IMG/VR virus record: IMGVR_UViG_3300006733_000042
Coordinates: 1 to 23,853 of that record
Reading direction: 5' to 3' (one strand)
DNA length: 23,853 nt
Origin: a virus
Position 1 is the stretch's first letter. Each line of letters starts with the position of its first letter. The notes beneath the pieces are model-generated. The model worked only from the letters and a program-made list of their open reading frames with translations. It was not told the DNA's origin and ran no database searches. Positions 10 through 20,426 of the stretch are shown here, piece by piece. A program made the translations under genes and the position numbers.

Positions 10-28
10 AAATGGTTTTAAACCATTT
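10..28 (-). terminator. A+T-rich palindrome over the sulfotransferase stop
   Basis: AAATGGTTT and AAACCATTT form a perfect 9-bp inverted repeat with one central base, overlapping the stop codon and followed on the minus strand by TTTCT. It could form a weak transcription terminator or 3'-end protecting hairpin. Low G+C content and a loop of about one base (so fewer pairs would really form) make this uncertain; the next gene is outside the window. Confidence 0.25.
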
Positions 29-161
29 CCATTTTTATGATTGTTCGACCGCTTATCTTTTTTCCATCCAAAAATAGAAAGTTATCGTGTAGATCTTTCA
101 GACTTTTGAACGTTCTTGTTTCTCCATTACCATAGGTAACTTCAAGACGTTTTTTTGTCAT
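18..161 (-). CDS. 47-aa ORF nested in the sulfotransferase frame
   Basis: Starting at the ATG at 161, in the same frame as the sulfotransferase and using the same stop, is MTKKRLEVTYGNGETRTF, followed by KSLKDLHDNFLFLDGKK and SGRTIIKMEMV. It is preceded by AAGGAGGTGA, complementary to ten bases of the 16S rRNA 3' end, with a 7-base spacer: the best ribosome-binding site in the window. The short protein, with a strand-helix-type pattern, does not resemble sulfotransferase. Either it is made separately by internal initiation, or it was once a separate gene whose upstream neighbour lost its stop. I do not recognise a family. Confidence 0.55.
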   Translation of the reverse strand: MTKKRLEVTYGNGETRTFKSLKDLHDNFLFLDGKKISGRTIIKMEMV

Positions 162-755
162 TGTTTCCTCACCTCCTTTGATTCGTTCTCCCATCCCTGA
201 TATACCTTTTCCAGGATTCCAACCCACCAAACAATCAAGTGTTTTCAATGGCGGATTATAGTTCAAATGAAAATGTTTGGCGATCTCATCCAAATGTTTT
301 AATGGATACAATACAAATTTTTCATATTCAATAACATAAATATTCGTTTTCTCCCATAATCGAATATGGTCATCTATTGCCTCCAATATTGTTGAACCGG
401 GGCGATGGGTTGGAATTGCCCCATTTGAATATACATTGGTAATAGAAATATTCAAAAAATGTTTGAATGAAAAATTCCGTTTATACATACGATAAACCGA
501 ATATGCAATATCCAGAGGATTTCTTTTAATATATATTGAACGGTCGAAATTATCATATATATTTGGGAACAAATGCCCACCATGTAGACCCGCCCAAGGA
601 CTTTGGGGAATAATGTTTTTATTCGGGGAATGAAATCGTCCAAATGTACTCCCCAATAATTTTGTTTCAGGATAAAAATTAATGAATAAATGCCCCAATA
701 ACATATTATTCCCTGCACGAGGGTGACCATATACTTTGATTATTTCATTCTTCAT
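18..755 (-). CDS. PAPS-dependent sulfotransferase, fused to a small C-terminal ORF
   Basis: A 245-aa protein. The 5'-phosphosulfate-binding loop is VYGHPRAGNNML (8-19), and the 3'-phosphate-binding motif is RNPLDIAYSVYRMY (78-91), with R78 and S86 in the expected places. YVIEYEKFVLYP (140-151) and NPGKGISG (180-187) fit the later conserved blocks of sulfotransferase family 1-like enzymes. It transfers sulfate from PAPS to a sugar, lipid or protein acceptor. I chose the ATG at 755: it overlaps the glycosyltransferase stop as ATGA; the upstream reading to 779 would overlap it by 28 bases. The last 47 codons have their own near-perfect ribosome-binding site and look like a separate gene fused in frame. 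Confidence 0.85.
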   Translation of the reverse strand: MKNEIIKVYGHPRAGNNMLLGHLFINFYPETKLLGSTFGRFHSPNKNIIPQSPWAGLHGGHLFPNIYDNFDRSIYIKRNPLDIAYSVYRMYKRNFSFKHFLNISITNVYSNGAIPTHRPGSTILEAIDDHIRLWEKTNIYVIEYEKFVLYPLKHLDEIAKHFHLNYNPPLKTLDCLVGWNPGKGISGMGERIKGGEETMTKKRLEVTYGNGETRTFKSLKDLHDNFLFLDGKKISGRTIIKMEMV

Positions 756-1864
756 TTTATACCCATTCCTCCATTCCATCCAGAAATTTCCATTAACCGT
801 AATGGTTTATTCAATCGCAATATAAGACGATTATTGATTATATTAATCTCCCTTGTATCAGATATTTGGTCAATAAAATATTTTGCCAAAATCTCAATGT
901 CGTGAGTTTTTTCAACCCATCTTCTTGTCTGTTTGGATAACTTTTCGAGTCCATTTCGATTATTAATTAATTTTGATATTTCTCTTACAATATCATTTTT
1001 ATTTCTTACTCGGATTATGGGGGAATTGTTCGCTCGATCAGTATCACATAAACATATAGAACCAAAACTTCCCGCCTCAATAAGACTTGTTCCATACCCT
1101 CTTGTCTTTTTGCATTTTTCAGGAATATATCTTTGTAAAATTTGGTCAAAAAATATATGGCATTCCTTCTTTCTCTCCATAGATTCATCATAATGAACCT
1201 TTTCGATTAATTCCTGAATTAAAATATTGGGAAATTTCTTATCTAATATTTTAAATGCTTTAAGAAATACCTCTGTTTTTTTTACTTCCCTTCTTGAAGG
1301 ACTGTGACCAATGATTAATTTCCCATTCCATTTTTTCTTATTAAATTTATATTTTTCTGTATCAATGGGTGCCTGTAATTCAATATTTCGATCAGACAGA
1401 TTAACCAAATCATAATGAGTAAAAATATAATCAAAATGTGGGTGGATTAGTTCATTAATAAATTCATAGTTTTGTCTATAAAAAACTCCACCATGCCATA
1501 TCCCTCGTGGAATATTGGGTGGCGGAGTTATCCCATGTGGTTTGTAATAATACGATGAACTCGTATATAATATGAAATCCGCCATATGATACAGTTGCTT
1601 CATCTCATTATAATCTATATCTTTTTCGAGAAGATCGGTCGGCCACCTAAAAGAATGAGGATTGGAGACAATACATCTCGCCCTCCATCCCTTCACGTAT
1701 TTATTTATTCCATCACATAAAAATTTACCGATGGCAGAAAAATCCCATTTGCCAATAACCAATAAAAATTTATCTTTGCCTTTTTTGAATCGATTGGATG
1801 CAGATGGAGGAAGTGGTGTTTCATATATCATATTCTTGTCTGCGATGGCCGTCAATCCGGACAT
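752..1864 (-). CDS. GT-B glycosyltransferase (GT4-like)
   Basis: A 370-aa protein with a Rossmann-like two-domain plan. The N-terminal half has KFLLVIGKWD (32-41), MADFILYTSSSYY (94-106), IPRGIWHGGVFYR (118-130) and YIFTHYDLV. The second half opens with KLIIGHSPSRREVKKTEVFLKAFKIL (broken; 182-207), the usual donor-domain start, then GYGTSLIEAGSFGSICLC (257-272), where E263 is the probable nucleotide-sugar contact, and SPIIRVRNKND (281-291). This pattern fits GT4-like retaining transferases. It would add a sugar to a glycan or protein, on virion or host envelope. AGGTGATGG precedes the ATG; its stop overlaps the sulfotransferase start as ATGA. No catalytic test is possible here. Confidence 0.8.
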   Translation of the reverse strand: MSGLTAIADKNMIYETPLPPSASNRFKKGKDKFLLVIGKWDFSAIGKFLCDGINKYVKGWRARCIVSNPHSFRWPTDLLEKDIDYNEMKQLYHMADFILYTSSSYYYKPHGITPPPNIPRGIWHGGVFYRQNYEFINELIHPHFDYIFTHYDLVNLSDRNIELQAPIDTEKYKFNKKKWNGKLIIGHSPSRREVKKTEVFLKAFKILDKKFPNILIQELIEKVHYDESMERKKECHIFFDQILQRYIPEKCKKTRGYGTSLIEAGSFGSICLCDTDRANNSPIIRVRNKNDIVREISKLINNRNGLEKLSKQTRRWVEKTHDIEILAKYFIDQISDTREINIINNRLILRLNKPLRLMEISGWNGGMGIK

Positions 1865-2673: not shown

Positions 2674-2704
2674 ATAGACATATATATTTTTCGTTATTGT
2701 CTAT
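2674..2704 (-). promoter_or_regulatory. Inverted repeat around TATA-like box (promoter candidate)
   Basis: ATAGACA (minus 2704-2698) and TGTCTAT (2680-2674) form a 7-bp inverted repeat around AAAATATATA (2690-2681), in the 63-nt gap before the zinc-ribbon gene. TAACGGAGAC follows 34 nt after the box, the same sequence and almost the same distance as in the gap before the protease gene. The second copy supplies the likely ribosome-binding site (GGAG, eight bases before ATG). The repeat could be an operator. This is suggestive, not proven. Confidence 0.38.
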
Positions 2705-3635
2705 CAAAATGAATATACCATACGACAGACAAAAGGTCAGTGGAAAACTTTTCGATTACCTCCTCCAATGCTATTCTTGCCACCATTTGAGGTAATCGAT
2801 TTAAAACCGAATCATCAGGAGGGGGAGTGAAACTTGTTATATTCCCAATTCCGCCAATATCCGCCACATGATCCCTGTGAGGAGAAAATGAAATCAAAAC
2901 CACATTATTGGCAGGAGATGGGACAGGAATATTACCCAATGTTATAACCTGATTCAATCTATCCCAACTAAATATTGTATTAGGCAACCCCAAACTGTCA
3001 TCTCTTAATGTTTGATACGCCTGTGCAGTATTCACAACATGAACATTGTAAATTTCCCATGCCAAATTCCCCGCTCCACCACGAGTAAAATCAATCTGAT
3101 TCGCTCCATCGAATGCCCGAACGCTCCCCATCCATTGATTCCAAAATAATCCGAGTTCCCATATTGGTAATATTGAAACTCCTGGAGGATAAATTGTGCC
3201 AATTCGAATCGAATCATTATCCGTAGTTGAACCGCCCAATATAGGCCCAAGAGGTTCCATCGATGTGTGCGCATTTCTATATCCATTTGCGATAAATGGA
3301 GCAATTAATCCATTTTGTTTTTTATTGGGAGGTGTCGAATTTTGACCCAACCCTATAAGTTCAGGGTGAAATCCAATTTTATAATCATCAATAAATGCGG
3401 TTATTACAGCGTTCAATTCAATGCCTTGAACATGTTGAGTAATTCCCTTATTATGCAATGGGTCATGTAATGATGACAATGCTTCATATCCCAATGTCGT
3501 TCCTCCACAATTCGTCATTGCCATTGCCAATCTATCGAAAAATCTGCCCATGAGCATATTTCTTTGAAGAACTTTTTTCTTTATCTTTCCATATTTATCT
3601 GTTAAGACAATTTCAACTTCACCCCATATTTTCAT
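2694..3635 (-). CDS. Tail-tip / receptor-binding-like protein B
   Basis: A 313-aa protein, probable paralogue of the neighbour. It shares the plan: IWGEVEIVLTD at the N-terminus, RNMLMGRFFDRLAM (24-37), LIGLGQNSTPP (about 94-104), PIWELGLFWNQ, QMVARIALEE and the final LLSVVWYIHFDRQ. The shared DR, GLGxxxxPP, GLF and LxVxWxIxFDR positions suggest a duplication, with divergence in the middle. It is the last clear virion gene before the modification genes. AGGGGGG lies close to the ATG. Because such proteins vary quickly, it may be a receptor-binding or adhesin component of the tail tip. Confidence 0.6.
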   Translation of the reverse strand: MKIWGEVEIVLTDKYGKIKKKVLQRNMLMGRFFDRLAMAMTNCGGTTLGYEALSSLHDPLHNKGITQHVQGIELNAVITAFIDDYKIGFHPELIGLGQNSTPPNKKQNGLIAPFIANGYRNAHTSMEPLGPILGGSTTDNDSIRIGTIYPPGVSILPIWELGLFWNQWMGSVRAFDGANQIDFTRGGAGNLAWEIYNVHVVNTAQAYQTLRDDSLGLPNTIFSWDRLNQVITLGNIPVPSPANNVVLISFSPHRDHVADIGGIGNITSFTPPPDDSVLNRLPQMVARIALEEVIEKFSTDLLSVVWYIHFDRQ

Positions 3636-3636
3636 C

Positions 3637-4674
3637 TCATTCCCCCCTGTCGAAAAATATCTGCCATGTAACTGTTAATGTATGATTCGGATTTTTAACG
3701 AATGAAACGGGCATTACCCTTCTCGCCACCATTCGACCATTATCGAACCCCAAATTTGTTCCAAATTCGCCCATCCACCCATGCCATACAGTTCCAACAC
3801 AATCATAACGGGGAGTAAATATAACCAATGCTCTTGCTGTTCCCGCATCGATTGACCCCACATCACAATATATTCTCTGACTTTCTCGATTGGCATCTAT
3901 CTGTTGTTGATTTAGAACATGCCCTTCCCAATTCCCGCCATCAAGAAGCATGACAAATACATTTAAAACAGACCAAAAAGTATTTGGATTTCGTGTCGGT
4001 TCACCTGGAGCCAAAGGTGTTTCACAATTGAATAAAACATATCCATCATCATCAACATAATAATGCCCAATATCCATATATGGCAGAAACAACCCCACTT
4101 CTGTTATGGGAGCTTCTAAATTATTAAATTCATCAGATAAATATATTGCGTTATATTTTGCGATATTGTCCCATCGAAATCCCAAACCTGTTTTATATGC
4201 TTGGGATTCAACTCCTCCAAATTTAGAATTGTGTGTGTTCCTTAATGTTTCATCAACAGGAATATCTAAATCAGTGTCCAATATTGTAGGAGTTGTATTG
4301 CCTAACCCCAATTTAATTAATTCGGGAAAAAATGTTTCCCATCCTGGTGTCGTGCAAACACCCGCATTCACAGACACCATTAATGGAAAATTACACACAT
4401 TCATTTGGGTTAATCGATTTCGATAGTCAGTAAATAGATTATGCCAATTCCCAACAGTATAACCGACCAATTCAACACACCTATCTGAAAAAAGAGGCAA
4501 CAACAAATTTCGCCCAATATCTTCTTGAACCTTTAATTCTTTCAGTTTTCTCCAATCCTCTCCATTCATCTTTGAAGGAAATTCAATCGATTTTTTAATC
4601 AACTTATCGAATCTTTTATTTGATTGATAACGTGTTACCGTAACTTCTCCGTATATTCTCACTTTTTCGATCAT
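3637..4674 (-). CDS. Tail-tip / receptor-binding-like protein A
   Basis: A 345-aa protein related to the next gene. It starts with a beta-rich YGEVTVTRYQSN, then RNLLLPLFSDRC, LIKLGLGNTTPTILDTDLDI and PITEVGLFLPYM, RMVARRVMP and a last strand LTVTWQIFFDRGE. The pattern GLGxxTPxxxDTxL, ITExGLF and LTVTWxIxF is common in phage tail tip and fibre proteins, where it forms a beta-sandwich that docks next to the baseplate. Cysteines are scattered and the protein has a glycine/aromatic-rich middle. It follows the hub, with GAGGATAATATT before the ATG. Its exact role, baseplate piece or receptor binder, cannot be resolved. Confidence 0.6.
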   Translation of the reverse strand: MIEKVRIYGEVTVTRYQSNKRFDKLIKKSIEFPSKMNGEDWRKLKELKVQEDIGRNLLLPLFSDRCVELVGYTVGNWHNLFTDYRNRLTQMNVCNFPLMVSVNAGVCTTPGWETFFPELIKLGLGNTTPTILDTDLDIPVDETLRNTHNSKFGGVESQAYKTGLGFRWDNIAKYNAIYLSDEFNNLEAPITEVGLFLPYMDIGHYYVDDDGYVLFNCETPLAPGEPTRNPNTFWSVLNVFVMLLDGGNWEGHVLNQQQIDANRESQRIYCDVGSIDAGTARALVIFTPRYDCVGTVWHGWMGEFGTNLGFDNGRMVARRVMPVSFVKNPNHTLTVTWQIFFDRGE

Positions 4675-4684
4675 AATATTATCC

Positions 4685-7681
4685 TCATGGAATATGGAAT
4701 GTCATATATGTTGTAACAGGAATCTGTCCCTCTGAATATATCGTAACCATATATTGTTCCCACCATTCAGTATATCCATCAATATTCGGAACCGATACTT
4801 GAGGAGCTGTTGTTCCTCTTGGACATGGTTGATCTTCGGCTAAATATTCATTGGTCAAAAACCACATTATATCAATATCATCACCCGAACCAAAACCAAG
4901 AGCCACAACATCCAATAATGCCCTATTTTTTACACCTGTCCATGAATAATTCGCAGGAGAACCCACTCCAAATCGAATTTCAGTTCCAACTTCAACAATG
5001 TCAATTATGAAATTTGTTCCTTGAAGTTTGACATTGCAGGGTTGCCACGCCCCAGGCCCTACGCTATCCCTTACCATAAATCCATATCCCAGGGGTTGAC
5101 CAGGGAATGTATGATTAAATGGATTCAATTCAACCTGCAAATCTGCTCCAACCATAACCAAAAACCACGAAGCATGATTATGTTCGGGATATATTGTAAT
5201 CCCCACATCCTCAAATATATCATAATGTTCCGTGGGAACGGGTAACAAATTACATTCTTGAATATCGGGGTCAATAAAGTTTTTTTCGACCCAATCAATC
5301 TGCCTCCGAGTGTCCGCAAAATGTTTAGCAATTTCCCAAGGTCTAACATTTGGTTGAATCTTCATTACTGCTCCCTGACGGGAAAATTCCCATCTAACCC
5401 CTTTAATAATGAATTTGAATGATGAAGCATCAGAGAAATGAGATTCTGCCACCTCTCCAAGCAATGTAAGGGGTTTGCGGTAAAGATGCGCCTGATTAGT
5501 TCTGTCTTTCTCATCGAGAGCATACACGCCATTACAGTTCCCCAAAAACCAATTACTCTGACCATTCCACCATTTATCTGCTGTAATGCGGTCATAACAG
5601 TCATCCGCAATAGAATCATCGTAATCCGTATCATCAAACCACGTTTCAATTCGATTGGTATTCTCGACTTGAATATGACCTTCAATGGGTTTTCGTGCCA
5701 AATCCTCATGCATATATTGAGCATTTTCATTACACAAATCTTGACCACGAATAGATTGATTGGATTCTTTTTTGTCTCGTGTGTTTCCTTCAATATTATA
5801 ATTATGAGGATAGTCACCGATTAAAGGGTATCCCTTATCGTCATGCGCCCCCTGACATGCAACATAATCAACATAGTTCTCCGTTCCCTGCTCCAATTGA
5901 CATCCCAATATTGAACGATTTATTCTGTCCATCACATAGGTTGATTGACCGCTCCATAAATCTAATATCGGGGTTCCTTCTTCATCCCTTCGATCTCGGA
6001 AAAATATTATATGTTCATTTCTGAACTCGAAATCGGCATATTCCTGAAATTCTAATAACAAAGTTTCAGCAACGGATTTTATAGCATTATACAAAGATGT
6101 CTTTATATCATATACCTTCGTAACGACAGAATCTTGAGTATCTTCGGTCACATTGTAAATGTTGGCATTAAATACTTGATCATGGTAATATCTGTATCCC
6201 AATCCGGTCAAATCCAATAGATGTAATAAACCATGATAATTCCCTCTATATTCTGCCCCGTCCACGATTTCATTTGGTGGGTCAGCAAAATGCCCCCATA
6301 AAACATCAGTCAATAACTTTTTATAGAATCGGGAAGAATCAGAATATATCAGTTTTTGAACTGCAATATACAAATCAGACAATAAAGTTATCTCGATCGT
6401 TGGACGGGCAGACCATTTATAATTTATCCGTTTGAATTGACCAATCAGAATATAATCTCCCAATGAAGGACTATTGATTCGTGGCATTCCTCTGACAATC
6501 ATATAGGATATATCTGTTGTTGGATTGGCGGTCATATTGTGATCTAATGTCAATTCATCCCCTGATATATTCGTTATTTCGAACCAATTATTTTCGGATA
6601 TTCCCTGACAGAAAATCCAAACATAATCTCCCACTTGAGCAGAATTGAAACCCGCAATTGCATTGGGACAAACAAGAATGTCGAAATCAGGCGCAACAAC
6701 TCCAGCTTTATAATCGTGATATATTAATTGAGATTGTTGAATGAATACCAATGCTTTATTATCGCATGAAATATGTTCAGGTTCATCGTCATTATTAGAA
6801 GTATAAATATCATCCCACCAATCCGCTATCATGGGATAAATTAAATCGAGTTTGCATTCAGATACTTCTCCCGTCAATTTCCCAACATTTAATTGAGAAA
6901 TATTGGATTTGAGTTTATGGTATTTGGCTTTATCATTCCCTTCAATTACAACCTCATAAAATGGACACCCATCAGGTTGTTCTATCATATCGGCCCAATC
7001 TTTTCCAACAATTCCTCCAATATACCATGTGCCACCATTCCCGTCTTTTTCCATCTCAAATCTGTGAGTTGTGGGTTTTGTTGTATCGGGAAGAATTGGA
7101 GCCACAATAGTTTCCAATTCATCACCAGGAACATTCTCCAATATTAATCCTATGGGATTGTACCATAATTTATATCCGTCCATGAAAAACTCGAAATATC
7201 CTCCAGACATATAAGAATTAACCTGATGAATAAGGAATCTGAACTCATGCCATTCATCGTCTAAATATACAGGTACTCCTTCAACCTGTCTCCATGCCGT
7301 TTCTTGTACCACATAAACCCAAACTTGTCCTTGAGTTAATCGGATTCGGACAATATGGTTCCCTAAATTGTTCATCAAGTTGATTGTAAGAACATCAGCA
7401 TTATTCGGGTCGAATGCATTTATAAGAAAACTAACATCAGTAACAAATGAATTGGGTTCCATAACAGCATTATGTTCGGCCCATTCATCGAGAATATCAT
7501 GTCCACCCTCGAATATCAGCATTTTTTGTTTATTCTTGGTAGAATGTTGATGATCAATAATTTTTAAATCTGTTGAGGATACCGTATAATTTTTAATCTC
7601 ATTGCCAGATGAACCAATCGTTTCATTCTCGAATAATTCGCGAAAAATGAAATAACTTCCTTCTGGAATATATCCTTTCAT
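4685..7681 (-). CDS. Large tail hub protein with lectin-like ends
   Basis: A 998-aa protein. Residues about 12-230 look like a concanavalin/LamG-type lectin: DVLTINLM, VRIRLTQGQVWVYV, and the typical turn DDEWHEFRFLIHQ then YFEFFMDGYKLW. From about 243 (FYEVVIEGNDKAKYHKLKS) to about 860 is the hub body, with beta-rich repeats (QSQLIYHDYKAGVV, ELTLDHNMTANP, RINYKWSARPTIEITLLSD) and a long helical-mixed segment, in the manner of tail-associated/gp27-like proteins. The last about 140 residues (GYGFMVRDS... IDIMWFLTNEYL) form a second beta-sandwich-like domain. It forms the tail tip that contacts the cell. GAGGAAT precedes the ATG. Catalytic motifs for a cell-wall enzyme were not seen. Confidence 0.75.
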   Translation of the reverse strand: MKGYIPEGSYFIFRELFENETIGSSGNEIKNYTVSSTDLKIIDHQHSTKNKQKMLIFEGGHDILDEWAEHNAVMEPNSFVTDVSFLINAFDPNNADVLTINLMNNLGNHIVRIRLTQGQVWVYVVQETAWRQVEGVPVYLDDEWHEFRFLIHQVNSYMSGGYFEFFMDGYKLWYNPIGLILENVPGDELETIVAPILPDTTKPTTHRFEMEKDGNGGTWYIGGIVGKDWADMIEQPDGCPFYEVVIEGNDKAKYHKLKSNISQLNVGKLTGEVSECKLDLIYPMIADWWDDIYTSNNDDEPEHISCDNKALVFIQQSQLIYHDYKAGVVAPDFDILVCPNAIAGFNSAQVGDYVWIFCQGISENNWFEITNISGDELTLDHNMTANPTTDISYMIVRGMPRINSPSLGDYILIGQFKRINYKWSARPTIEITLLSDLYIAVQKLIYSDSSRFYKKLLTDVLWGHFADPPNEIVDGAEYRGNYHGLLHLLDLTGLGYRYYHDQVFNANIYNVTEDTQDSVVTKVYDIKTSLYNAIKSVAETLLLEFQEYADFEFRNEHIIFFRDRRDEEGTPILDLWSGQSTYVMDRINRSILGCQLEQGTENYVDYVACQGAHDDKGYPLIGDYPHNYNIEGNTRDKKESNQSIRGQDLCNENAQYMHEDLARKPIEGHIQVENTNRIETWFDDTDYDDSIADDCYDRITADKWWNGQSNWFLGNCNGVYALDEKDRTNQAHLYRKPLTLLGEVAESHFSDASSFKFIIKGVRWEFSRQGAVMKIQPNVRPWEIAKHFADTRRQIDWVEKNFIDPDIQECNLLPVPTEHYDIFEDVGITIYPEHNHASWFLVMVGADLQVELNPFNHTFPGQPLGYGFMVRDSVGPGAWQPCNVKLQGTNFIIDIVEVGTEIRFGVGSPANYSWTGVKNRALLDVVALGFGSGDDIDIMWFLTNEYLAEDQPCPRGTTAPQVSVPNIDGYTEWWEQYMVTIYSEGQIPVTTYMTFHIP

Positions 7682-7690
7682 TTTTATTCC

Positions 7691-8131
7691 TCAAGAACTA
7701 TATCCAACGAGAGTTATATTAATGACATAAGTGGCAACCCTATCAGTCAAATGATAACCGATTCCCGATTTCTCGACAATATCCAATTTCATGATTTTTG
7801 TGTGTTGATAAGCCCCCCCCAAAACATTTGTTACATAATCGCAATAAAAATCCAAATCTCGACCATTCCTTGCCCAATCCTGTAAAGTGTCCACAACATC
7901 ACTCGGAATTGTTCCTCCCGTAACACTAATAAGCCGAGTATCATATAATGGGATGGAAAATGTGAATTTATGTGAATTGGATCCCATTGATTGAATTACC
8001 GATTCCAATCCACCTGGAATACTTTGTTCAGCGACCATTATATCTGGATCAATTTTTAATTCTCCTGGTCTTACTGCAAATAAAACTGTCGTTCCACCGT
8101 AAACTAATTTAAATTGTTCTTCATATGCCAT
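7691..8131 (-). CDS. Distal tail / tail-tip structural protein
   Basis: A 146-aa beta-rich protein: FKLVYGGTTVLFAVRPGELKI (7-27), HKFTFSIPLYDTRLISV (54-70), YLTDRVATYVINITLVGYSS at the end, with a helix-containing DWARNGRDLDFYCDY in the middle. It lies between tape measure and the large hub, the usual place for a distal tail protein (Dit) or a hub-adapter ring, and its strand-rich layout resembles tail tube-fold proteins. There is no unambiguous motif. The start overlaps the previous stop as TAATG. A tract of eight G bases within the coding sequence (7813-7820) is slippage-prone. Confidence 0.55.
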   Translation of the reverse strand: MAYEEQFKLVYGGTTVLFAVRPGELKIDPDIMVAEQSIPGGLESVIQSMGSNSHKFTFSIPLYDTRLISVTGGTIPSDVVDTLQDWARNGRDLDFYCDYVTNVLGGAYQHTKIMKLDIVEKSGIGYHLTDRVATYVINITLVGYSS

Positions 8132-9063
8132 TATAACCCCGCCGATAAATTATAACTTGATGTTTCCGTATGCAATAACCCCTTTCTGACCATCTCACTG
8201 ACTATTTCTTGAGCGGTCGATAAATTACCCCAAATATTGATTGTTGTGCTTGTTGTTCCCCCCCCTCTGTGAACGAATTCGCCTTCATGCACAAATGCCA
8301 ATCCTTCAGACATTACTTGTTTAACCTCCGCCCCTTTTGTTTGCATCCCAGGTATTTCTCCCGTTGTTTCTCCCGCCATAACCTCCGATTCTTTAGGCAT
8401 ATCGGGGGTAATTGATCGAGCCAACGCAATTCCACCTGCTACTGCTCCTGCCATTATAGCAAGACCAACCCCCCACGTCGTAACCGAAGCCTCAATAATC
8501 TTGGCGGCGATAAGTTGATAGGTTACCATTATCATTGTTCCAATTTGGGCAATCATTAGAGTATATTGAACCATTAACATTTTTCGTTGTAAGATCATTT
8601 GTTTTCGTTGTAATGCCAACCGTTCCTCCGTCATTGACATATTTCTTCGGGTATTTCTTAATTTATCCTCAACTTGCCATTGCTGAAATGTTATATCTCT
8701 GGAAGCCAACTGAACCCGTAATTGAGCCATTTGGACATCTAATCTTCTTCCTGTTCGTTGCGTTATTAAATATTGTCTTTGTGCTAATTTAAGGGATAAT
8801 TCCGCCTGTCGAATATCCAACCCAAATTGTCTTTCAGATAATCGGTTTATCTCCCTTTTGGCGTCTGCCAAAGACCAATAAGACTGAATTAACGATAAAT
8901 TAGATTGTTGAAGCGATAATGTGGTTGTCATCAATGACATAAAGGCACTTGTGAGAGAATGTGCCATATTGGAAATAGTATTAAGACTATCCTTAACATC
9001 TTTTGCGCCTTGATCTTTCCACTGAACCCGTAAAAGTTCTATATCTGTTTCTTGTGTGACCAT
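8131..9063 (-). CDS. Short tape measure protein
   Basis: A 310-aa protein directly after the chaperone pair, the standard place. Residues about 35-160 form a long coiled-coil with regular spacing (SLADAKREINRLSERQF, RLDVQMAQLRVQLAS). Residues about 163-217 are strongly hydrophobic, two potential membrane segments (MLMVQYTLMIAQIGTMIMV and GVGLAIMAGAVAGGIALA). Near 255-266, GLAFVHEGEFVHRGG, matches the common phage tail tape measure ending (VHxGEFVH/VxxGG). At about 1.5 angstrom per residue, 310 residues would set a tail near 46 nm, unusually short for a siphovirus. A run of eight G bases lies in the C-terminal coding part. It overlaps the chaperone extension at its start. Confidence 0.8.
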   Translation of the reverse strand: MVTQETDIELLRVQWKDQGAKDVKDSLNTISNMAHSLTSAFMSLMTTTLSLQQSNLSLIQSYWSLADAKREINRLSERQFGLDIRQAELSLKLAQRQYLITQRTGRRLDVQMAQLRVQLASRDITFQQWQVEDKLRNTRRNMSMTEERLALQRKQMILQRKMLMVQYTLMIAQIGTMIMVTYQLIAAKIIEASVTTWGVGLAIMAGAVAGGIALARSITPDMPKESEVMAGETTGEIPGMQTKGAEVKQVMSEGLAFVHEGEFVHRGGGTTSTTINIWGNLSTAQEIVSEMVRKGLLHTETSSYNLSAGL

Positions 9064-9304
9064 TTATTTTTCACCCAATCGGGTTTTTCCGTTGCTTTAT
9101 CCCAATCTTCACCAAATTCAGTTTTTTCAACTTCCTTTATTCCCTCGTCAGTATGCCCTAAATGTTCTTTCGTCAATGCATCCATCTGTGAAATCGCTCG
9201 TTCAGTTAATAACCATATCCGTGAACATGGTTCGTTCATTATCGTTTTTATATCGTAGTGATACGTTTCTGTCAATATTTCAATCGGAGATAATACATTT
9301 ATTT
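9039..9304 (-). CDS. Tail chaperone frameshift extension (T part of gpGT)
   Basis: This is the -1-frame ORF entered through the slippery site; the predicted fusion is 128 residues of the upstream frame plus about 88 of this one, roughly 216 aa. Its N-terminal residues after the shift read QINVLSPIEIL, and the C-terminal half is acidic and lysine-rich (EKTEFGEDWDKATEKPDW). It has no ATG or Shine-Dalgarno of its own: only a GTG upstream of the slip without a ribosome-binding site. The extension is the part that recruits tube protein in lambda. Its end overlaps the tape measure start by 25 bases. Confidence 0.72.
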
Positions 9305-9688
9305 GTTTTTTTTTAATACGTCCGTTGGTTGTGAAATCTCCCACACCAAAACATATAACGGATTCATGGCATGAAATAATCTTACATCATCATTAAGTGA
9401 ATCTGTTGATATGTTATTTTTTTCCAAAGTTACTTTTAAAACATACGATTGATGTTTAAAGGATTTCTGTGAAAAATTATCATTCATCATTTTCTCCATT
9501 ACGGATTGGGGAGAGTTCCCTTTATCCAATTGTTCAATTTCATCCATTGTAAAATCAGGGATGGGTAATAGGGTCAATGCTTCCATATATTCCTCAAATT
9601 TGAGCGGATATGCTTTAATCCTATTACCCAATATTTCGATCTCCTCCGGTGTGCCTAACATTCGTTTCATATCGTCTATAATATCCAT
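9299..9688 (-). CDS. Tail assembly chaperone, unshifted form (gpG-like)
   Basis: A 129-aa protein with DIIDDMKRMLGTPEEIEILGNRIKAYPLKF near the N-terminus and VEISQPT-type helical C-terminus; the sequence EEYMEALTLLPIPDF and the helical acidic character fit small tail assembly chaperones. It lies between the tube and tape measure genes, overlaps a second ORF in the -1 frame, and carries a slippery A_AAA_AAC three codons before its stop, exactly the lambda gpG/gpGT arrangement. It coats the tape measure during tail assembly and is not in the final virion. AGGAG is nine bases before the ATG. Confidence 0.75.
   Translation of the reverse strand: MDIIDDMKRMLGTPEEIEILGNRIKAYPLKFEEYMEALTLLPIPDFTMDEIEQLDKGNSPQSVMEKMMNDNFSQKSFKHQSYVLKVTLEKNNISTDSLNDDVRLFHAMNPLYVLVWEISQPTDVLKKNK
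9305..9311 (-). other. -1 ribosomal frameshift slippery site
   Basis: Minus-strand heptamer A_AAA_AAC, read in the chaperone frame as TTA AAA AAA AAC AAA TAA. Slipping one base back on this run of nine A residues continues with CAA ATA AAT in the -1 frame, into the downstream ORF. A AAA AAC is one of the strongest known X XXY YYZ slippery sequences, and programmed shifts at this spot between gpG-like and gpGT-like products are widespread in tailed phages. No downstream pseudoknot was worked out by eye. Confidence 0.75.
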
Positions 9689-9707: not shown

Positions 9708-10970
9708 TTATACAGTATAAATTTTAATTCGTAAATCTGCTATTTCATCCTCTAACCAATTTCCGATTAACATGGGCCAAACATCCGCTATATTCTGCCA
9801 ATTATTCCCTCCCGCATATGACCCAGGGATTTCGGCATTCAAAATATAGTATTCATCGTCATTGCATTGTAATGTTGTTTCAACCGTCACAATATAAAAT
9901 CCTGGCACTAATGTAAAGGGTGTAGCGAACTGAAATTCGTTATATGCTCCAAGAACAATATCTCCATGAACTTTTGATTCTGTTGATGCTAATATTGGAA
10001 GAACAGGATTAGGAGTTGCACCATATATCCGGCAGATCATTGGTTGCGGAGTTCCAACTTTTCCGTATATATAGGGATATATTGCACAAAGATCAATTGA
10101 TTCTGTAACCTCAAATACCTGACCCTGAAAGAAATTCTCGAATATGGCAATATTAACCTTTCTTCCAACATATCGATATTCCTCTCCTTCATCTCCAATA
10201 TGAAGATATTCCGCACATTCTGGTAAATGAAAGGGATAATCTGGAATATTATCATCATATGGAAGGGTCCGAAGATATGTAGATTCACCTTTTATCGAGC
10301 ATTCCAATATTTTATCCGTTACATTATCTTCCCTAAAATCTGAAAACTTAGTGCAAGGACATATTATTGTTTGTCTCACACTTGCATCTGCTTCATCTCG
10401 GATATGCAATATAACCAAATAATAATCTTGAACCTTTCCGTCCACGTAATCCGGAACTTCAATTAATCCGTTACCCAAAAATCCGAATTGTGTCCATACA
10501 TTATTTTCTTTGGTAGGAACAATTTTTCTTTTGTCAATAAAACATTTCTTTATATCGAGTTCATTGGAATATACGGTTGCCTGAATATCTGATGGATAAC
10601 ATGACCCTATTTCTGAATGAACTTCAATCGGGCGTTTATAATCAATGCTCATCGATGTGACTTTTCCGATTGATCTTTGTTGTGGTGTCCAATATTCCGT
10701 TTCATCTGCTTGAATTCCATCATAATATCGTAATTCTCCCGTGTCTATATCTATTACCCACGCAATAAGACCAGGAGAAGCGACCACAATATTTGTGAAT
10801 GAATCATATGGTGGAAGAAATGAAGATGAAATATATACAATGCCATTAAGCATTACAACATTTCCCGCTCCATCTTCGATCAGATTTCCTCCCTTTCTAT
10901 ATGGGCACATGGAATTTTTCTCGATTATGAGATAACAATTCTCACCCGTCCATATTTCTTGCCTTGCCAT
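9708..10970 (-). CDS. Tail tube-like paralogue 3 with C-terminal beta-sandwich
   Basis: A 420-aa protein with the same two-part plan as its neighbour. The core has CPYRK, WVIDIDTGELRYY, YWTPQQRSIGKV, FIDKRKIVP and IICPCTKFSDF. The C-terminal half has GQVFEVTESIDLCAI, FVLVP-like LVPGFYIVTVE, GSYAGGNNW and a DLRIKIYTV ending. The core is closer to paralogue 1 in the FIDKRKI block, the extension is shared with paralogue 2, so the family probably expanded by tandem duplication with domain gain. The start overlaps the previous stop as TAATG. Function is inferred as tail tube or tube decoration; a separate surface-adhesion role is equally possible for the C-terminal domain. Confidence 0.55.
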   Translation of the reverse strand: MARQEIWTGENCYLIIEKNSMCPYRKGGNLIEDGAGNVVMLNGIVYISSSFLPPYDSFTNIVVASPGLIAWVIDIDTGELRYYDGIQADETEYWTPQQRSIGKVTSMSIDYKRPIEVHSEIGSCYPSDIQATVYSNELDIKKCFIDKRKIVPTKENNVWTQFGFLGNGLIEVPDYVDGKVQDYYLVILHIRDEADASVRQTIICPCTKFSDFREDNVTDKILECSIKGESTYLRTLPYDDNIPDYPFHLPECAEYLHIGDEGEEYRYVGRKVNIAIFENFFQGQVFEVTESIDLCAIYPYIYGKVGTPQPMICRIYGATPNPVLPILASTESKVHGDIVLGAYNEFQFATPFTLVPGFYIVTVETTLQCNDDEYYILNAEIPGSYAGGNNWQNIADVWPMLIGNWLEDEIADLRIKIYTV

Positions 10971-12271
10971 TATGTCACCTTATAGATTTTGAACCATAAA
11001 TCCTCGTTTTCCACTTGCCAGGAAGAACCTGGTGGATATATTAAATCAATGGAATAATATGCATTACCTCCCGCATATCCACCTGGTTCATCTTCTTCAA
11101 TTATTATATGAAAGGTATAAGGATTGGTTGGTTCTTCAGTATCTTCAATTGTGAAAAAATATTGTGTTGTTGCCAATAAATTGATCGAAGCAGGGAACAA
11201 AAATTTGTTTTCTGAATTTGCGATCAATTCATCCCATGCCTTTGGTAATGAACTTGCCAATAAATTTCCAGAAACTGCGTCCCACAATCGAATTATTAGG
11301 GGTTTATGATCCGACGTTAATACATAATTTCCAAGTTGTATCCCCACCGAACAAAGTTCGAATGCTCCAATCGTTGTGAATGTTTGACCTTTCCAAGTAT
11401 AAAATACTCCTCCATGTCCGGCATGATGTCCCACCCATGCATCAGCAGGAGTTTGATTCCACCATTCGATCTCAACAACAGTGCATTCTATTTCAGGAAC
11501 CACAATCGATTGACCATATGTTATGATCTCTTTCGCCGGATATTGAATCATATAGGTTGCTTTTCCGCTCAAATTACATCGGATTATTCTGGATGATTCA
11601 TTTATTATTTCTATATTATCGAATCTCGCACATGGTAAAATAATCGTTTTGGCAATCTTTCCGTCATCATTATCGTGATATAAATAATATAGAACGACAA
11701 AAAACCAATTCTTTCGCAAAACTTGAACATATGATAAAAATGAAGAATCATTTATAAATTCATGCCCATCATATCCAATAATATTCCCCAAAGGAGAATC
11801 AACATCAATATCAATATCCGTGCTTATATCCAATTTGTCTTTTGAGATAAATGTTTTGCTCAATTGAAATCGAATATCATCCGTTTGATGAGGTATCCCA
11901 TGAGCATATTGTTGTCCAAGTTCTTTTATGGCCATCGATTGATGAGATTCTGTTATTGATATGGATTGAGTTTTTCCCATTGCCAACTGCATCGGTGTCC
12001 AATATTCATCAGGGTCGGGATGGGCAATATCGATTTGATAATATCGCAATTCTCCTGTATCAACATTTAAAACCCACGAAGTCCCCAAACAATTATGGGC
12101 AATCGCAGAAAACGAATTAAACGGCCAGGGATTTGTGGATGTAAAGGCAATAAACCCATTCATTGAGAATGGAGTTCCATCTGGAAGAACTGTAGGATTT
12201 CTCACAGGACATTGGTCATTATTCTCAAAAATTATTAGGTATGCCTGGGTTCCTGATAAACTATCATCCAT
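10970..12271 (-). CDS. Tail tube-like paralogue 2 with C-terminal beta-sandwich
   Basis: A 433-aa protein whose first about 240 residues resemble the preceding gene (QCPVR, WVLNVDTGELRYY, YWTPMQLAMGK, FISKDKLDI, IILPCARFDNIE, GKATYM). The last about 170 residues are an added beta-rich domain with GQTFTTIGAFELCSVGI, LIIRLWD, LFPASINLLATTQYFFTI, GGYAGGNAYYS and a final DLWFKIYKV. This ending resembles beta-sandwich modules of the 'choice-of-anchor' kind, common in extracellular and carbohydrate-associated proteins, which end in YxGG...D-L-F-xxY. An exposed tube decoration, or a special tube end, is plausible. GGAGG precedes the ATG. Confidence 0.55.
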   Translation of the reverse strand: MDDSLSGTQAYLIIFENNDQCPVRNPTVLPDGTPFSMNGFIAFTSTNPWPFNSFSAIAHNCLGTSWVLNVDTGELRYYQIDIAHPDPDEYWTPMQLAMGKTQSISITESHQSMAIKELGQQYAHGIPHQTDDIRFQLSKTFISKDKLDISTDIDIDVDSPLGNIIGYDGHEFINDSSFLSYVQVLRKNWFFVVLYYLYHDNDDGKIAKTIILPCARFDNIEIINESSRIIRCNLSGKATYMIQYPAKEIITYGQSIVVPEIECTVVEIEWWNQTPADAWVGHHAGHGGVFYTWKGQTFTTIGAFELCSVGIQLGNYVLTSDHKPLIIRLWDAVSGNLLASSLPKAWDELIANSENKFLFPASINLLATTQYFFTIEDTEEPTNPYTFHIIIEEDEPGGYAGGNAYYSIDLIYPPGSSWQVENEDLWFKIYKVT

Positions 12272-12282
12272 TTGGGATCCTC

Positions 12283-13026
12283 CTATGGCGGAGTCCCCGT
12301 CGGTGTATAATCCTCAATATTTACTGAATCATCAGGGAGATAAAATACATATGTGGCACTTCCGGATAATGAAATTGCCTGTAATTTATCGTTCTCTGCT
12401 GATGTTTCATATTTGGAGAATTTGGCACACGGCATTATCAAAATTCTTGCTACATTATCAGAATCCGAACTTGCATCCCATTGATAAACTATAACAAGAT
12501 ACCAACTCTGTGCATATGGTTCCCACCTTCTTGGGATTGAAACAACTCCAGGTCCGCCAAATCCTGCCTGATTTTCTAAAGGAGAAGTTCGAGAAATGGC
12601 CGCAATCTTTCTTTTGTCAATGAAAGTTTTTGGCATCTCGAAATTAACATCGAACTGTTGTGATTTTAAATCAACGGCATGAATCTCACCCAATGCCCGA
12701 TCTTTCTCAACTGTTCTCTCGTTCGTTATTCGAATATTTTTAACTTTCCCGATGGCTCTTTGCATCGGTGTAAAATATTCAGCCAATACACCTGAAGCCG
12801 CATAATATCGGATTTCGCCCGTTTCCACATCTATCTGCCAGCCCGTAACAGTGGGAATCCATGTATCATATGGAGCCGCAAAAGCAGAGGATAAATAATA
12901 TATTCCATTACGATACACTATATTTCCATCAGATTCTCCATCATCGGTTATCACAGTTCCCACGGGACATTCTGTCGTGCGTTCAACGATTACATAGTTA
13001 TTCCATCCTGCGTATGAATCTTCCAT
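12283..13026 (-). CDS. Tail tube-like protein, paralogue 1 (short form)
   Basis: A 247-aa protein at the tail-tube position. It shares a pattern with the next two genes: ECPVG near residue 19, WQIDVETGEIRYY (62-75), YFTPMQRAIGKV (83-94), FIDKRKIAA (about 138-146), ILIMPCAKFSKYE near 195-207, and LSGSATYVF near 220. The tube-protein role is inferred from gene order (tail terminator before, chaperone and tape measure after) and the beta-rich fold; no known tube motif is visible. It ends about residue 247 without the extra domain of its paralogues, so it may be the main tube subunit. GAGGTGA is upstream of the ATG. Confidence 0.6.
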   Translation of the reverse strand: MEDSYAGWNNYVIVERTTECPVGTVITDDGESDGNIVYRNGIYYLSSAFAAPYDTWIPTVTGWQIDVETGEIRYYAASGVLAEYFTPMQRAIGKVKNIRITNERTVEKDRALGEIHAVDLKSQQFDVNFEMPKTFIDKRKIAAISRTSPLENQAGFGGPGVVSIPRRWEPYAQSWYLVIVYQWDASSDSDNVARILIMPCAKFSKYETSAENDKLQAISLSGSATYVFYLPDDSVNIEDYTPTGTPP

Positions 13027-13035
13027 TATCTCACC

Positions 13036-13512
13036 TCATGGTATATCTTCCAATGTTTCAATGTATGTTAAGAGTTTTAAAGTTATATTATATTTTCTCA
13101 ATCCTTCTAAATTATGGTCAAAGTCTAAATGCCACTCTCTTGTAATGTGATGGGGAGGAACTTTAATTCCCAATCCTGCCATATATACCCGAAATTCTCG
13201 ACTTCGTAAATATCGCGCATAATCATAAAAAAATGTATCACCCAATTCCTTTTCAGTTCCGGATAACGACATTGTATTATCTCTAAAACCCAAGATAATA
13301 TTGAATGTGATGATTGTTTGTGTTTGAGTATCACCCAATTCATAGGGCGCAGGATCCACCTCATAACCCAAGACAATAAATTTTTTATATTTATTAGTTC
13401 TTTCCTCTTGAGGATGTGTGTAAATATGATCTTCCAAATCAGAATCCCCTACGGCTTTGGATTCCAAATATGCAATCAATGATTTAACTACGTCGATAAC
13501 GGATATATTCAT
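13036..13512 (-). CDS. Tail terminator-like protein
   Basis: A 158-aa protein: an N-terminal helix (MNISVIDVVKSLIAYLESK), then strands around TIITFNIILGF and NITLKLLTYIETLED with an intervening helical FYDYARYLRSREF. The alpha/beta layout and order (after gp10-like, before the tube proteins) match tail terminator proteins such as gpU/gp17, which cap the tube and join it to the head. No single diagnostic motif is visible. The start overlaps the previous stop as ATGA. The stop leaves nine bases before the first tube-like protein, which has GAGGTGA upstream. Confidence 0.6.
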   Translation of the reverse strand: MNISVIDVVKSLIAYLESKAVGDSDLEDHIYTHPQEERTNKYKKFIVLGYEVDPAPYELGDTQTQTIITFNIILGFRDNTMSLSGTEKELGDTFFYDYARYLRSREFRVYMAGLGIKVPPHHITREWHLDFDHNLEGLRKYNITLKLLTYIETLEDIP

Positions 13513-13916
13513 ATGCCAACCGCCTCCTGCAATCGTTGAAATAATCTTTGACTTGCTCTTTTTATGATATTATGCGGTTGGATTCCTTGAACCCATCGAG
13601 TGAAAATTTCCTTATCATCAATGAAAAAATGGAGTGCCTTCGCTGTTACTGGACCATGAGCAGAAGTTCCATGCTCAATATAAAGAACAACCATCGAATC
13701 CGCCCGAAGAGCAAAATAACCGTGCCCCACTTCCAAAGTTATTCCTTCCGCTGTTTTTCCTGATTTTTTGGGAAATTCACTTTTTATCTCGCCCAAGGTT
13801 CCTGTCATTTCTTCCTTTAACCATGCTATAAAATGATCAAGTGCCTCGTTTTGTCGTTGTCGATATTTTTTGGCATATTGTGATAAATCCGTGGAAGATA
13901 CTTTCATTGTTATCAT
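13509..13916 (-). CDS. HK97 gp10-like tail-completion protein
   Basis: A 135-aa protein, MITMKVSSTDLSQYAKKY, followed by a long helix (RQRQNEALDHFIAWLKEEM), then FPKKSGKTAEGITLEVGHGY, MVVLYIEHGTSAHGPV and a C-terminal helix with IKRASQRLFQRLQEAVG. The order helix, PxxSGxT, strand, YxxxxExGTxxxGP matches the HK97 gp10-like putative tail-component family, which joins tail to head. I use the ATG at 13916 because it overlaps the previous stop as ATGA and has GGAGGTG five bases upstream. The 13958 start would overlap the previous gene by 46 bases. Confidence 0.7.
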   Translation of the reverse strand: MITMKVSSTDLSQYAKKYRQRQNEALDHFIAWLKEEMTGTLGEIKSEFPKKSGKTAEGITLEVGHGYFALRADSMVVLYIEHGTSAHGPVTAKALHFFIDDKEIFTRWVQGIQPHNIIKRASQRLFQRLQEAVGI

Positions 13917-14341
13917 GCCAGCACCTCCGTTATCAATTTTCTCAACAGCATATGCCAATATGGAACTTCATTATCAACATCTTCGGGTGAGCGAATTTCA
14001 ATCACCCTAAAATATAACTCATCAATTATGACCTTGATATTATCGTAATTATTGAAAACAAAGAACTGCTCAACCAATTCGGGTTTTAAATCTGCTTCCC
14101 AAATAACGACTTCCAAATCCGAGGCTCCAACTATAGCAATATTCCCCCAAATCTTCGAATTTTTGACAGGGGATATTATTGCTTTGACAGTTTCTTTTAT
14201 CTCCAAATCTTTTTCCGACCCGCCGTAATTTGTATAAATTCCACTATCATTCACAAAAACCAAAGTAACGGTTTTCCCCTTATAGAATGTGTGAATTACT
14301 TCCAACCGATCTCGGAATATCTCATGGATTCTTAACGTCAT
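13913..14341 (-). CDS. Head-tail stopper-like protein
   Basis: A 142-aa protein, mostly predicted beta strands (TVTLVFVNDSGIYTNYGGSEKDLEI, broken over 24-48; VKAIISPV; NIAIVGASDLEVVIWEADL split over 67-85; DELYFRVIEIRSPEDV) with a C-terminal helix. This small beta-barrel style and its place as the second protein after the adaptor fit a head-closure/stopper protein. There is no diagnostic motif, so the role is inferred from gene order. The ATG at 14341 overlaps the upstream gene by 20 bases and has GGAGGG ten bases before it. Its stop overlaps the next start as ATGA. Confidence 0.5.
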   Translation of the reverse strand: MTLRIHEIFRDRLEVIHTFYKGKTVTLVFVNDSGIYTNYGGSEKDLEIKETVKAIISPVKNSKIWGNIAIVGASDLEVVIWEADLKPELVEQFFVFNNYDNIKVIIDELYFRVIEIRSPEDVDNEVPYWHMLLRKLITEVLA

Positions 14342-18314: not shown

Positions 18315-20426
18315 TTATTTTGATTCCCTATACATATCTTCTTTTATCCCAAAATCCTTATTTCTCCCCTTGTTCTCCACAAATCCAAATGTTTTGTAAA
18401 ACTTCTTTAATCTTGATACTGTCCCCCCATAATCAGAGGAGGGAGTTAATGTTATTATTTTTTTTTCTTTATCTGCCAAATCAATTAATTTTTTCATCAC
18501 CTTTCCTCCTATTCCCCTTCCTCGTTGATTTTTTGGTAATGATATTCGTGATAAATTTAATTTATCTTTTGTAATGTATATTTCTAATTTCAATTCATCA
18601 TATTTTTCTTCCATCTCGGACATAAAATTATTTATAATATCCTTTATTTCTTTCTTATCTTCTTGTTTTTCTTCTTTCATATTATAGTCCTTATGAATCT
18701 CTCCATCTTCACCAATTGGTACTTTTCTGCCCTTAATTGTCACCCATTTAGTTATCTCACTATCTGGAATATCTGAGGCCTTCTTCTCGTCCCAATTGCC
18801 CATCATTTTCTCGAACATATCTTCATAGGGATCCCACGCAGGAGCGGGGGTTTCCACCACCTTTTTCATCAATTCCGGTTGCTGAATCTTCGATAATCCC
18901 ATTGATGTGATTCCCGCCCGTTTAGTTCTCATCGGGTCTCGAACTTCTTCTGAATCACCCATTCCTCCCATGCCTCCATCCATGTCCTGTGGATTCAACT
19001 CAAATAAAAATTTGTCTCCTTTTTCTTCATCGACATCTTCGAGATGTATCATTTTGCGAAATTCGTTCAGGGTTATTCCAAATGCCTTAAACTCGTTTAT
19101 GGCTCTATTGGTATCCATATTTTCATCTTGTATCGCTAAATCATTCCATTCCATGTGTAAACCTGATTCTTCCAAATCTTCTCGATTCCACCCCATTCGA
19201 ATTAATCCTGGATAAACAATCTTATGCAAAATATAGATTCCGATTCTCTGCTGAAGTCCGTGCAACTTTACAATGAACGAATCCCAATTTACTGCGGCTG
19301 TTGTGTGCGAACTTCCTTCAGGAATGCCCATGATATTCCGTGGGACACCCATCGCCACAATTCGGTCCTCCCGTAATAATTTATAGAACTCAATCATCGC
19401 ATTCATAGCCACTCCTGGCTCCGCCTGGGGTTGAACATCCGTTCCCATTGCATAAATATCATCCCCTGCCCTTCGAGATTCGTTCGCTCCCTTAACCCGT
19501 TCCCATTCTGGATCAGATAGAGGACGAGTATCTCCAGACATTGCCTTGAAAATGACAGGAGGTCTAACGATTGTATGTGAGCCAATATATAGATTATTTT
19601 CACATGCCCGTATCAATTCCGCTGTGCGAACCATTGACATTAAATCACTCGTGCCATATGCTGATTCATGGCTCAAGGTTCTCGGCATCCATCGAAATTG
19701 AACAATCTTATCACAAGTGAACGCAATAGGAGGGAAACTCAAAACTTGTAAATATCCATAAACATTTCCCAAACTATCGTTTCGAACCCTCATATAATAT
19801 GGGTCGAGTGCTTTAATGTTAAGTAGGATTTCACCATCTTCAATGTCAATTTCCTTTTTTCCTTCCCATCTTCGCTTTATTCCGTTTATGTCGATATATT
19901 CATTTTGTTTCCTTGATTCTTTGGACAATTTCCTTTCTTTCTTTTCTGCCCCATAAACGAGTTCAATGTATGCGCACCCATACACAATCATATCAGACAT
20001 TATGGCCGGAAGGATATGTTGATCTAGTTCATTTTTTATCAATGAGAACAATCTGTTTGTATCATCCAGAACCTTCTCCCCATTCTTTTGATCTGGATCA
20101 ACTTCCCATTCATATCCTTTTTGTAGACCCAAATGAATCTGAACGGCAATACTCGATTGAACCCACGGATCATTCCTCACAATATCCCTATACTTGCCCA
20201 AATCTTCGATGGGTTTGATTCCCCATCGTTTCGTATAGAAATCCGTATATGGAGATTGAATATATCCAATGCCCGAATAAGGAGGGATTTTATCTTGAGA
20301 TATTTTTAATGGTTCTCTCCACGATTCATCAACACCATCCAATTCAATCGCTTCTTCTGGTGGAATTTCTCGATATGCATCTTTACTTTTTTTCTTTCGG
20401 CGAAATAAACCATCAAAAATACTCAT
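18315..20426 (-). CDS. Portal protein with C-terminal GNAT-like domain
   Basis: A 703-aa protein. Residues about 40-480 are a portal: KYRDIVRNDPWVQSSI (78-93), YGCAYIELVYG (149-159), the IVQFRWMPR segment (241-249), SAYGTSDL, and HTTAAVNWDSFIVKLHGLQ (374-392). The portal dodecamer forms the head vertex through which DNA passes. Residues 480-560 are a methionine/glycine-rich and acidic linker, followed by WVTIKGRKVPIGEDGEI (561-577), a motif seen in phage head proteins. The end (about 605-700) matches a GNAT fold: LSRISLPKNQRGRGIG carries the acetyl-CoA-binding Q/RxxGxG loop, followed by ITLTPSSDYGG and FYKTFGFVENKGRNKDF. Ordinary portals are roughly 400-550 aa. GGAG precedes the ATG by five bases. 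Confidence 0.93.
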   Translation of the reverse strand: MSIFDGLFRRKKKSKDAYREIPPEEAIELDGVDESWREPLKISQDKIPPYSGIGYIQSPYTDFYTKRWGIKPIEDLGKYRDIVRNDPWVQSSIAVQIHLGLQKGYEWEVDPDQKNGEKVLDDTNRLFSLIKNELDQHILPAIMSDMIVYGCAYIELVYGAEKKERKLSKESRKQNEYIDINGIKRRWEGKKEIDIEDGEILLNIKALDPYYMRVRNDSLGNVYGYLQVLSFPPIAFTCDKIVQFRWMPRTLSHESAYGTSDLMSMVRTAELIRACENNLYIGSHTIVRPPVIFKAMSGDTRPLSDPEWERVKGANESRRAGDDIYAMGTDVQPQAEPGVAMNAMIEFYKLLREDRIVAMGVPRNIMGIPEGSSHTTAAVNWDSFIVKLHGLQQRIGIYILHKIVYPGLIRMGWNREDLEESGLHMEWNDLAIQDENMDTNRAINEFKAFGITLNEFRKMIHLEDVDEEKGDKFLFELNPQDMDGGMGGMGDSEEVRDPMRTKRAGITSMGLSKIQQPELMKKVVETPAPAWDPYEDMFEKMMGNWDEKKASDIPDSEITKWVTIKGRKVPIGEDGEIHKDYNMKEEKQEDKKEIKDIINNFMSEMEEKYDELKLEIYITKDKLNLSRISLPKNQRGRGIGGKVMKKLIDLADKEKKIITLTPSSDYGGTVSRLKKFYKTFGFVENKGRNKDFGIKEDMYRESK

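Follow-up and report, generated by a model that had tools for sequence, protein, structure and literature searches.

Tandem genes for plain and extended tail-tube-like proteins suggest a composite tail tube in a short-tailed, probably archaeal virus

In most known tailed viruses the tail tube comes from one gene, and tail tubes are usually regarded as homopolymers whose length is set by the tape-measure protein. Phage SPP1, however, makes two major tail proteins by translational frameshifting, gp17.1 and gp17.1*, which form a mixed tube at a ratio of 3:1; the extra domain of gp17.1* is dispensable and has been proposed to aid weak surface contacts (PMC8718954). The tube proteins lambda gpV and T5 pb6 carry a Big_2 Ig-like domain (PMC8718954). 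A preliminary description of the locus reported here had held that a hetero-tube, or a tube bearing lectin-like domains, would be unusual; lambda gpV, T5 pb6 and SPP1 gp17.1* show that decoration as such is not (PMC8718954). Tandem tube-like paralogues also occur elsewhere, as gp179 and gp180 of Bacillus phage G. Among archaeal siphoviruses, HFTV1 has a 341-aa tape measure, 11 tube rings and a 56-nm tail (PMC12494034). Decorated tubes and tandem tube-like paralogues are each already known; judged against the part of the literature that was searched, what is new here is their combination in a short-tailed archaeal lineage.

The window (the whole stretch of DNA analysed, 23,853 nt, IMG/VR record IMGVR_UViG_3300006733_000042) contains the structural genes of a tailed virus, arranged as a cassette on the minus strand. 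Three consecutive minus-strand genes, T1, T2 and T3, encode the putative tail-tube paralogues P0001, P0002 and P0003. T1 (12283..13026) is a complete ORF for a plain protein of 247 aa, whilst T2 (10970..12271) and T3 (9708..10970) encode extended proteins of 433 aa (core ~1-255, extension ~256-433) and 420 aa (core ~1-245, extension ~246-420), respectively. The end of T2 is overlapped by the start codon of T3, and a purine-rich, SD-like stretch lies upstream of each of the three genes.

A core of ~240 residues is common to T1, T2 and T3 and aligns end to end at 31-37% identity. By BLASTP, P0001 matches P0002 at 32% identity (E 9e-34) and P0003 at 36% (E 3e-47), and P0002 and P0003 align along their entire length at 28% (E 8e-40). 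The pair scores lie 59-72 SD above chance, as measured against 200-500 shuffled sequences, and the paralogy is far beyond chance. The extensions of P0002 and P0003 (~175-180 residues) are 28% identical to each other and by themselves score 18 SD above shuffled sequences. The ORFs, the BLASTP matches and the shuffles thus bear out the preliminary description, both in its three consecutive paralogues with a common core and in the C-terminal extension shared by the last two. All of the core motifs that it listed are present, but its first block was one residue short, missing the (Q/V) after the W: the block reads W-(Q/V)-(I/L)-(D/N)-(V/I)-(D/E)TGE(I/L)RYY. The further core blocks are Y(F/W)TP.Q...GK and PC(A/T)(K/R)F, and those of the extension GQ.F...(E/D)LC and YAGGN...DL(W/R).KIY.

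On its head side the cassette runs through terminase, portal, MuF-like, protease/scaffold, major capsid protein (MCP), head-tail genes and Neck1; on its tail side it continues with a terminator-like gene, the three tube genes, a chaperone pair, the tape measure, a small connector and the hub. A related virus from a terminase-alignment scan (IMGVR_UViG_3300009320_000043, hereafter G003), whose TerL is 41% and MCP ~50% identical to those of the window, has a tail module that is syntenic gene for gene. In the window all of the tail-module genes listed here are on the minus strand. The Neck1/tail-completion gene (13509..13958) matches phrog_5 (E 4.5e-5). Between it and the tube genes is a gene for a 158-aa protein (13036..13512), tail-terminator-like by this position and 39% identical to the syntenic G003 gene. 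On the other side of T1-T3, an ORF resembling tail assembly chaperone G by position and synteny (9299..9688) ends in a slip-site stretch with nine A (TTA AAA AAA AAC AAA TAA). A GT-like ORF in the -1 frame (9039..9344) overlaps it across the A9 run. G003 has the same -1 overlap, with an A10 run, and the pair is a classical G/GT arrangement. The next gene (8131..9063), inferred from its place after the G/GT pair and its helix-like product to encode a short tape-measure protein of 310 aa, is 41% identical to a 308-aa G003 gene that is likewise the putative tape measure. It is followed by a baseplate-connector-like gene of 146 aa (7691..8131), placed by position, whose G003 orthologue matches phrog_380 (E 5.7e-5), and by a tail hub/Tal-like gene of 998 aa (4685..7681), placed by position and size and 32% identical to the syntenic G003 gene.

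T1-T3 are flanked by the terminator/neck genes on one side and by the G/GT pair and the tape measure on the other, a position kept in G003. Tube genes are to be expected at this place, and the rest of the module contains nothing tube-like. With a contractile (myovirus) tail in mind, 20 window proteins were scanned and gave no PHROG match to a sheath or wedge protein, with profiles missing most of the module. Nor did the window show a clear Dit ring.

Elsewhere in the cassette, the portal (window 18315-20426) has an acetyltransferase-like (GNAT) domain at its end, to which phrog_10691 also matches (E 2.6e-25) and which the G003 portal does not have. The portal and MuF-like genes of G003 (L023:13334-15792) are on the strand opposite to its terminase/protease genes, unlike in the window, a local inversion of the head module. 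The two genes after the hub (window 2694-4674) are mutually paralogous, and each matches both G003 counterparts. Directly behind the tail genes, window 18-1864 contains two genes, one sulfotransferase-like (PF00685, E 2.7e-5) and the other conserved and glycosyltransferase-like by eye, with no Pfam match; both are syntenic in G003, at 35% and 45% identity, respectively, and hint at sulfated or glycosylated virion proteins.

Searches with the cores of the three proteins gave nothing significant in PHROG, Pfam, NCBIfam or PDB-sequence profiles, and a tblastn search of 50,697 phage records with the proteins returned no relatives. HFTV1 has a proven tube protein that is likewise without a PHROG match, so the silence of the profiles says little for or against a tube. 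Folds were compared using AlphaFold models of P0001 (5 sequences; mean pLDDT 51.5, pTM 0.57) and P0003 (3 sequences; mean pLDDT 45), both of low confidence and, with alignment rows partly in common, not fully independent. In VIA-align, nearly all 50 rows for the P0001 model were Hcp or phage/injection-system tubes (top Z 8.8), and the HFTV1 tail entry 9fkb matched with Z 6.6 over 126 residues. Rows for the P0003 core were almost wholly Hcp or tube entries (top Z 9.1). In two odd-looking P0001 rows, 4ksr and 7o42, the match falls at the very end of a much larger chain; the title of 7o42 names Hcp1, and 4ksr, too, is probably a fusion with Hcp1. Foldseek lists (PDB and BFVD) were likewise dominated by named tail tubes, at low TM-scores (about 0.1-0.35 on the query). 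As unrelated proteins can reach a Z of 7-8, we give more weight to how uniform the lists are, and to the gene order, than to any single score. On these models the shared core most likely has a tail-tube fold, and the gene order also supports this. The tail-tube-like core of the preliminary description is backed in the same way: the AlphaFold modelling it had proposed as a check returned tube and Hcp neighbours for P0001 and P0003, if at low pLDDT.

In their overlap with the window, two IMG/VR contigs from other samples match it at 100% identity, including the parts of the three genes that they cover. One of them (L013, 39.7 kb) supplies the rest of the genome and an MCM helicase (L013:61-2130). 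Since, among phage records, this virus-encoded MCM matches archaeal viruses only (of Halorubrum, Haloarcula, Haloferax, Methanocaldococcus and Altiarchaeum), the virus probably infects archaea. Neither a provirus nor a host turned up when GTDB species genomes were scanned twice, with the tube core and with the MCP.

G003 has two tube paralogues, the plain P0004 (270 aa) and the extended P0005 (449 aa). The identity between P0001 and P0004 (38%) is the highest between the two viruses, and in a tree of the five sequences P0001-P0005, P0003 groups with P0005 (support 90/91). Because G003 has both forms and P0003 groups with P0005, the pair of plain and extended genes is probably older than the split of the two viruses, with moderate support from a five-tip tree; the window virus has one additional extended copy relative to G003. 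That G003 retains the pair makes it unlikely that the duplication is a chance or decayed one. When loci with distant terminases were scanned with HMMs of the core and extension, the only hits were in G003 and in L107, which represents the G003 virus. In a more distant virus (L109, an 87-kb contig with an MCP 38% identical to that of the window), the tube position (L109:14496-15731) is taken by one 412-aa tail protein that is unrelated and matches phrog_290 (minor tail protein); the tandem tube set is therefore not found throughout the wider group.

The P0002 extension scored 20.3 bits against choice-of-anchor R (NF041539; E 4e-4, or 5e-5 for the extension alone), below the curated cut-off of 30 bits, and the P0003 and P0005 extensions had no NF041539 match. 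Filing of the extension as choice_anch_R was rejected, a direct family search of the two virus records being negative. In its low-confidence model the P0003 extension is predicted as strands; structurally it matches best to part of the phi812 baseplate chain 9euj_G (Z 7.1, 98 residues, 3.0 A, 19% identity). The models make a beta-sandwich surface domain plausible; sugar binding is a guess. Of the beta-sandwich or lectin-like module envisaged earlier, the beta-rich character stands, whilst a lectin-like identity is tentative, given a single match below the cut-off and a model of low confidence. The two IMG/VR contigs that are otherwise identical to the window both break off within the T3 extension, at window 10076 and window 10158, and the former also starts at window 9726. 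No repeat was found as a cause of these breaks; the T3 extension may vary within the population or, as the other option, strong folding potential at ~9900-10050 may have broken the assembly.

On balance we favour a composite tube of plain T1 and decorated T2/T3 subunits in a short-tailed, siphovirus-like and probably archaeal virus; we infer that all three proteins are present in the virion, that the tube is mixed and that the extensions bind surfaces. The tape measure is only 310 aa; scaling from HFTV1, a single reference structure, gives a tube of ~10 hexameric rings and ~60 subunits. T1 would build the conduit together with T2 and T3, and with the same conduit core in plain and decorated subunits either could enter the rings. 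The beta-rich C-terminal domains of T2 and T3 would project outside the tube and probably touch the host surface (S-layer or glycans) weakly. Encoded by separate genes, the cores of the decorated forms would be free to diverge, and such divergence would be in keeping with mixed rings in which each form has a set place, as in Hcp2-Hcp3, or with a restriction to certain rings along the tail. The extended copies might also sit at one tail end only. An obligate hetero-oligomer, with plain and decorated paralogues at fixed ring positions (alternating or 2:2:2), reduced symmetry and a regular, unequal decoration, seems to us unlikely. The literature searched yielded no tailed virus with a gene-encoded hetero-ring tube and, in so far as it was covered, no description of a short-tailed archaeal lineage in which plain and decorated tube genes are conserved together.

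The main rival to the composite tube is that only T1 is the repeated tube protein and that T2 and T3 form dedicated single end rings (Dit-like or collar), with the extensions as adhesins or adaptors. Terminal tail rings are commonly made of tube-fold proteins, and baseplate, cap and neck entries are among the tube-like structural matches; that the best match of the P0003 extension is a baseplate chain, and that no clear Dit ring was found, would also fit. However, T2 and T3 lie between the terminator and the chaperones rather than past the tape measure among the baseplate genes, and their cores resemble T1 almost as closely as T1 resembles its G003 counterpart. We consider dedicated rings doubtful, though a serious contender.

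T2 and T3 might instead be alternative decorated subunits, variants of a host-range domain of which one is dispensable or little used. A single extended gene suffices in G003, and the two contigs that stop inside the T3 extension with no repeat to explain the break are what would be expected if the domain varies. Contig ends arise from many other causes, however, T2 and T3 are both intact ORFs with SD-like starts, and at just 28-31% identity their duplication is not recent; we judge this explanation improbable. Even harder to sustain is the idea that the genes encode other head-tail or decoration proteins with a coincident beta-sandwich. It draws on the low model confidence and the absence of a sequence-profile match, but would require almost wholly tube/Hcp PDB lists for two models and an exact placing at the tube position, in a module with no other tube-like gene, to be misleading, and we regard it as very improbable.

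A composite tube with separate plain and decorated genes raises the questions of how ~60 positions are divided among the paralogues and whether these mix within rings or are sorted into different rings along the tail. Decoration of the tube may help archaeal viruses to bind S-layers or glycans. For annotation, the locus is a warning that a tail tube may be more than a single gene.

Each of the known systems shares some of these features. HFTV1 is, like the window virus presumably is, an archaeal siphovirus with a short tail and a short tape measure (gp40, 341 aa), and its 9fkb entry matches the core at the level of the fold; unlike the window virus it has one 158-aa tube protein, gp35, with no paralogues or extension annotated, and gp35 has no detectable sequence similarity to the core in a weak profile comparison from one sequence. 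Bacillus phage G has adjacent paralogues, gp179 and gp180, that are 38% identical, lie just upstream of chaperones and tape measure, and both match the P0001 model (BFVD). Their tube identity comes from fold match and position only, PHROG 985 being filed under head proteins; moreover, this is a giant phage with a tape measure of ~2,890 aa, and gp179 and gp180 are too short for such an extension. The Hcp2-Hcp3 heterohexamer of the Bacteroides fragilis T6SS (PDB 9vne), which matches both models (Z 7.9-8.0, VIA-align), has a related tube fold with two paralogues per ring, but belongs to a secretion system and not a virus. Lambda gpV and T5 pb6 resemble T2 and T3 in having a C-terminal beta-sandwich on a tube core, but there the domain is on every subunit of a tube from a single gene. 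In SPP1, plain and C-terminally decorated subunits have a common core and together build a siphovirus-type tail, as proposed here, but they come from one frameshifted gene rather than from three separate, diverged genes with a different, larger extension. By analogy, the best reading is that the window tube would work like that of SPP1 gp17.1/gp17.1*, with the decorated form supplied by separate genes.
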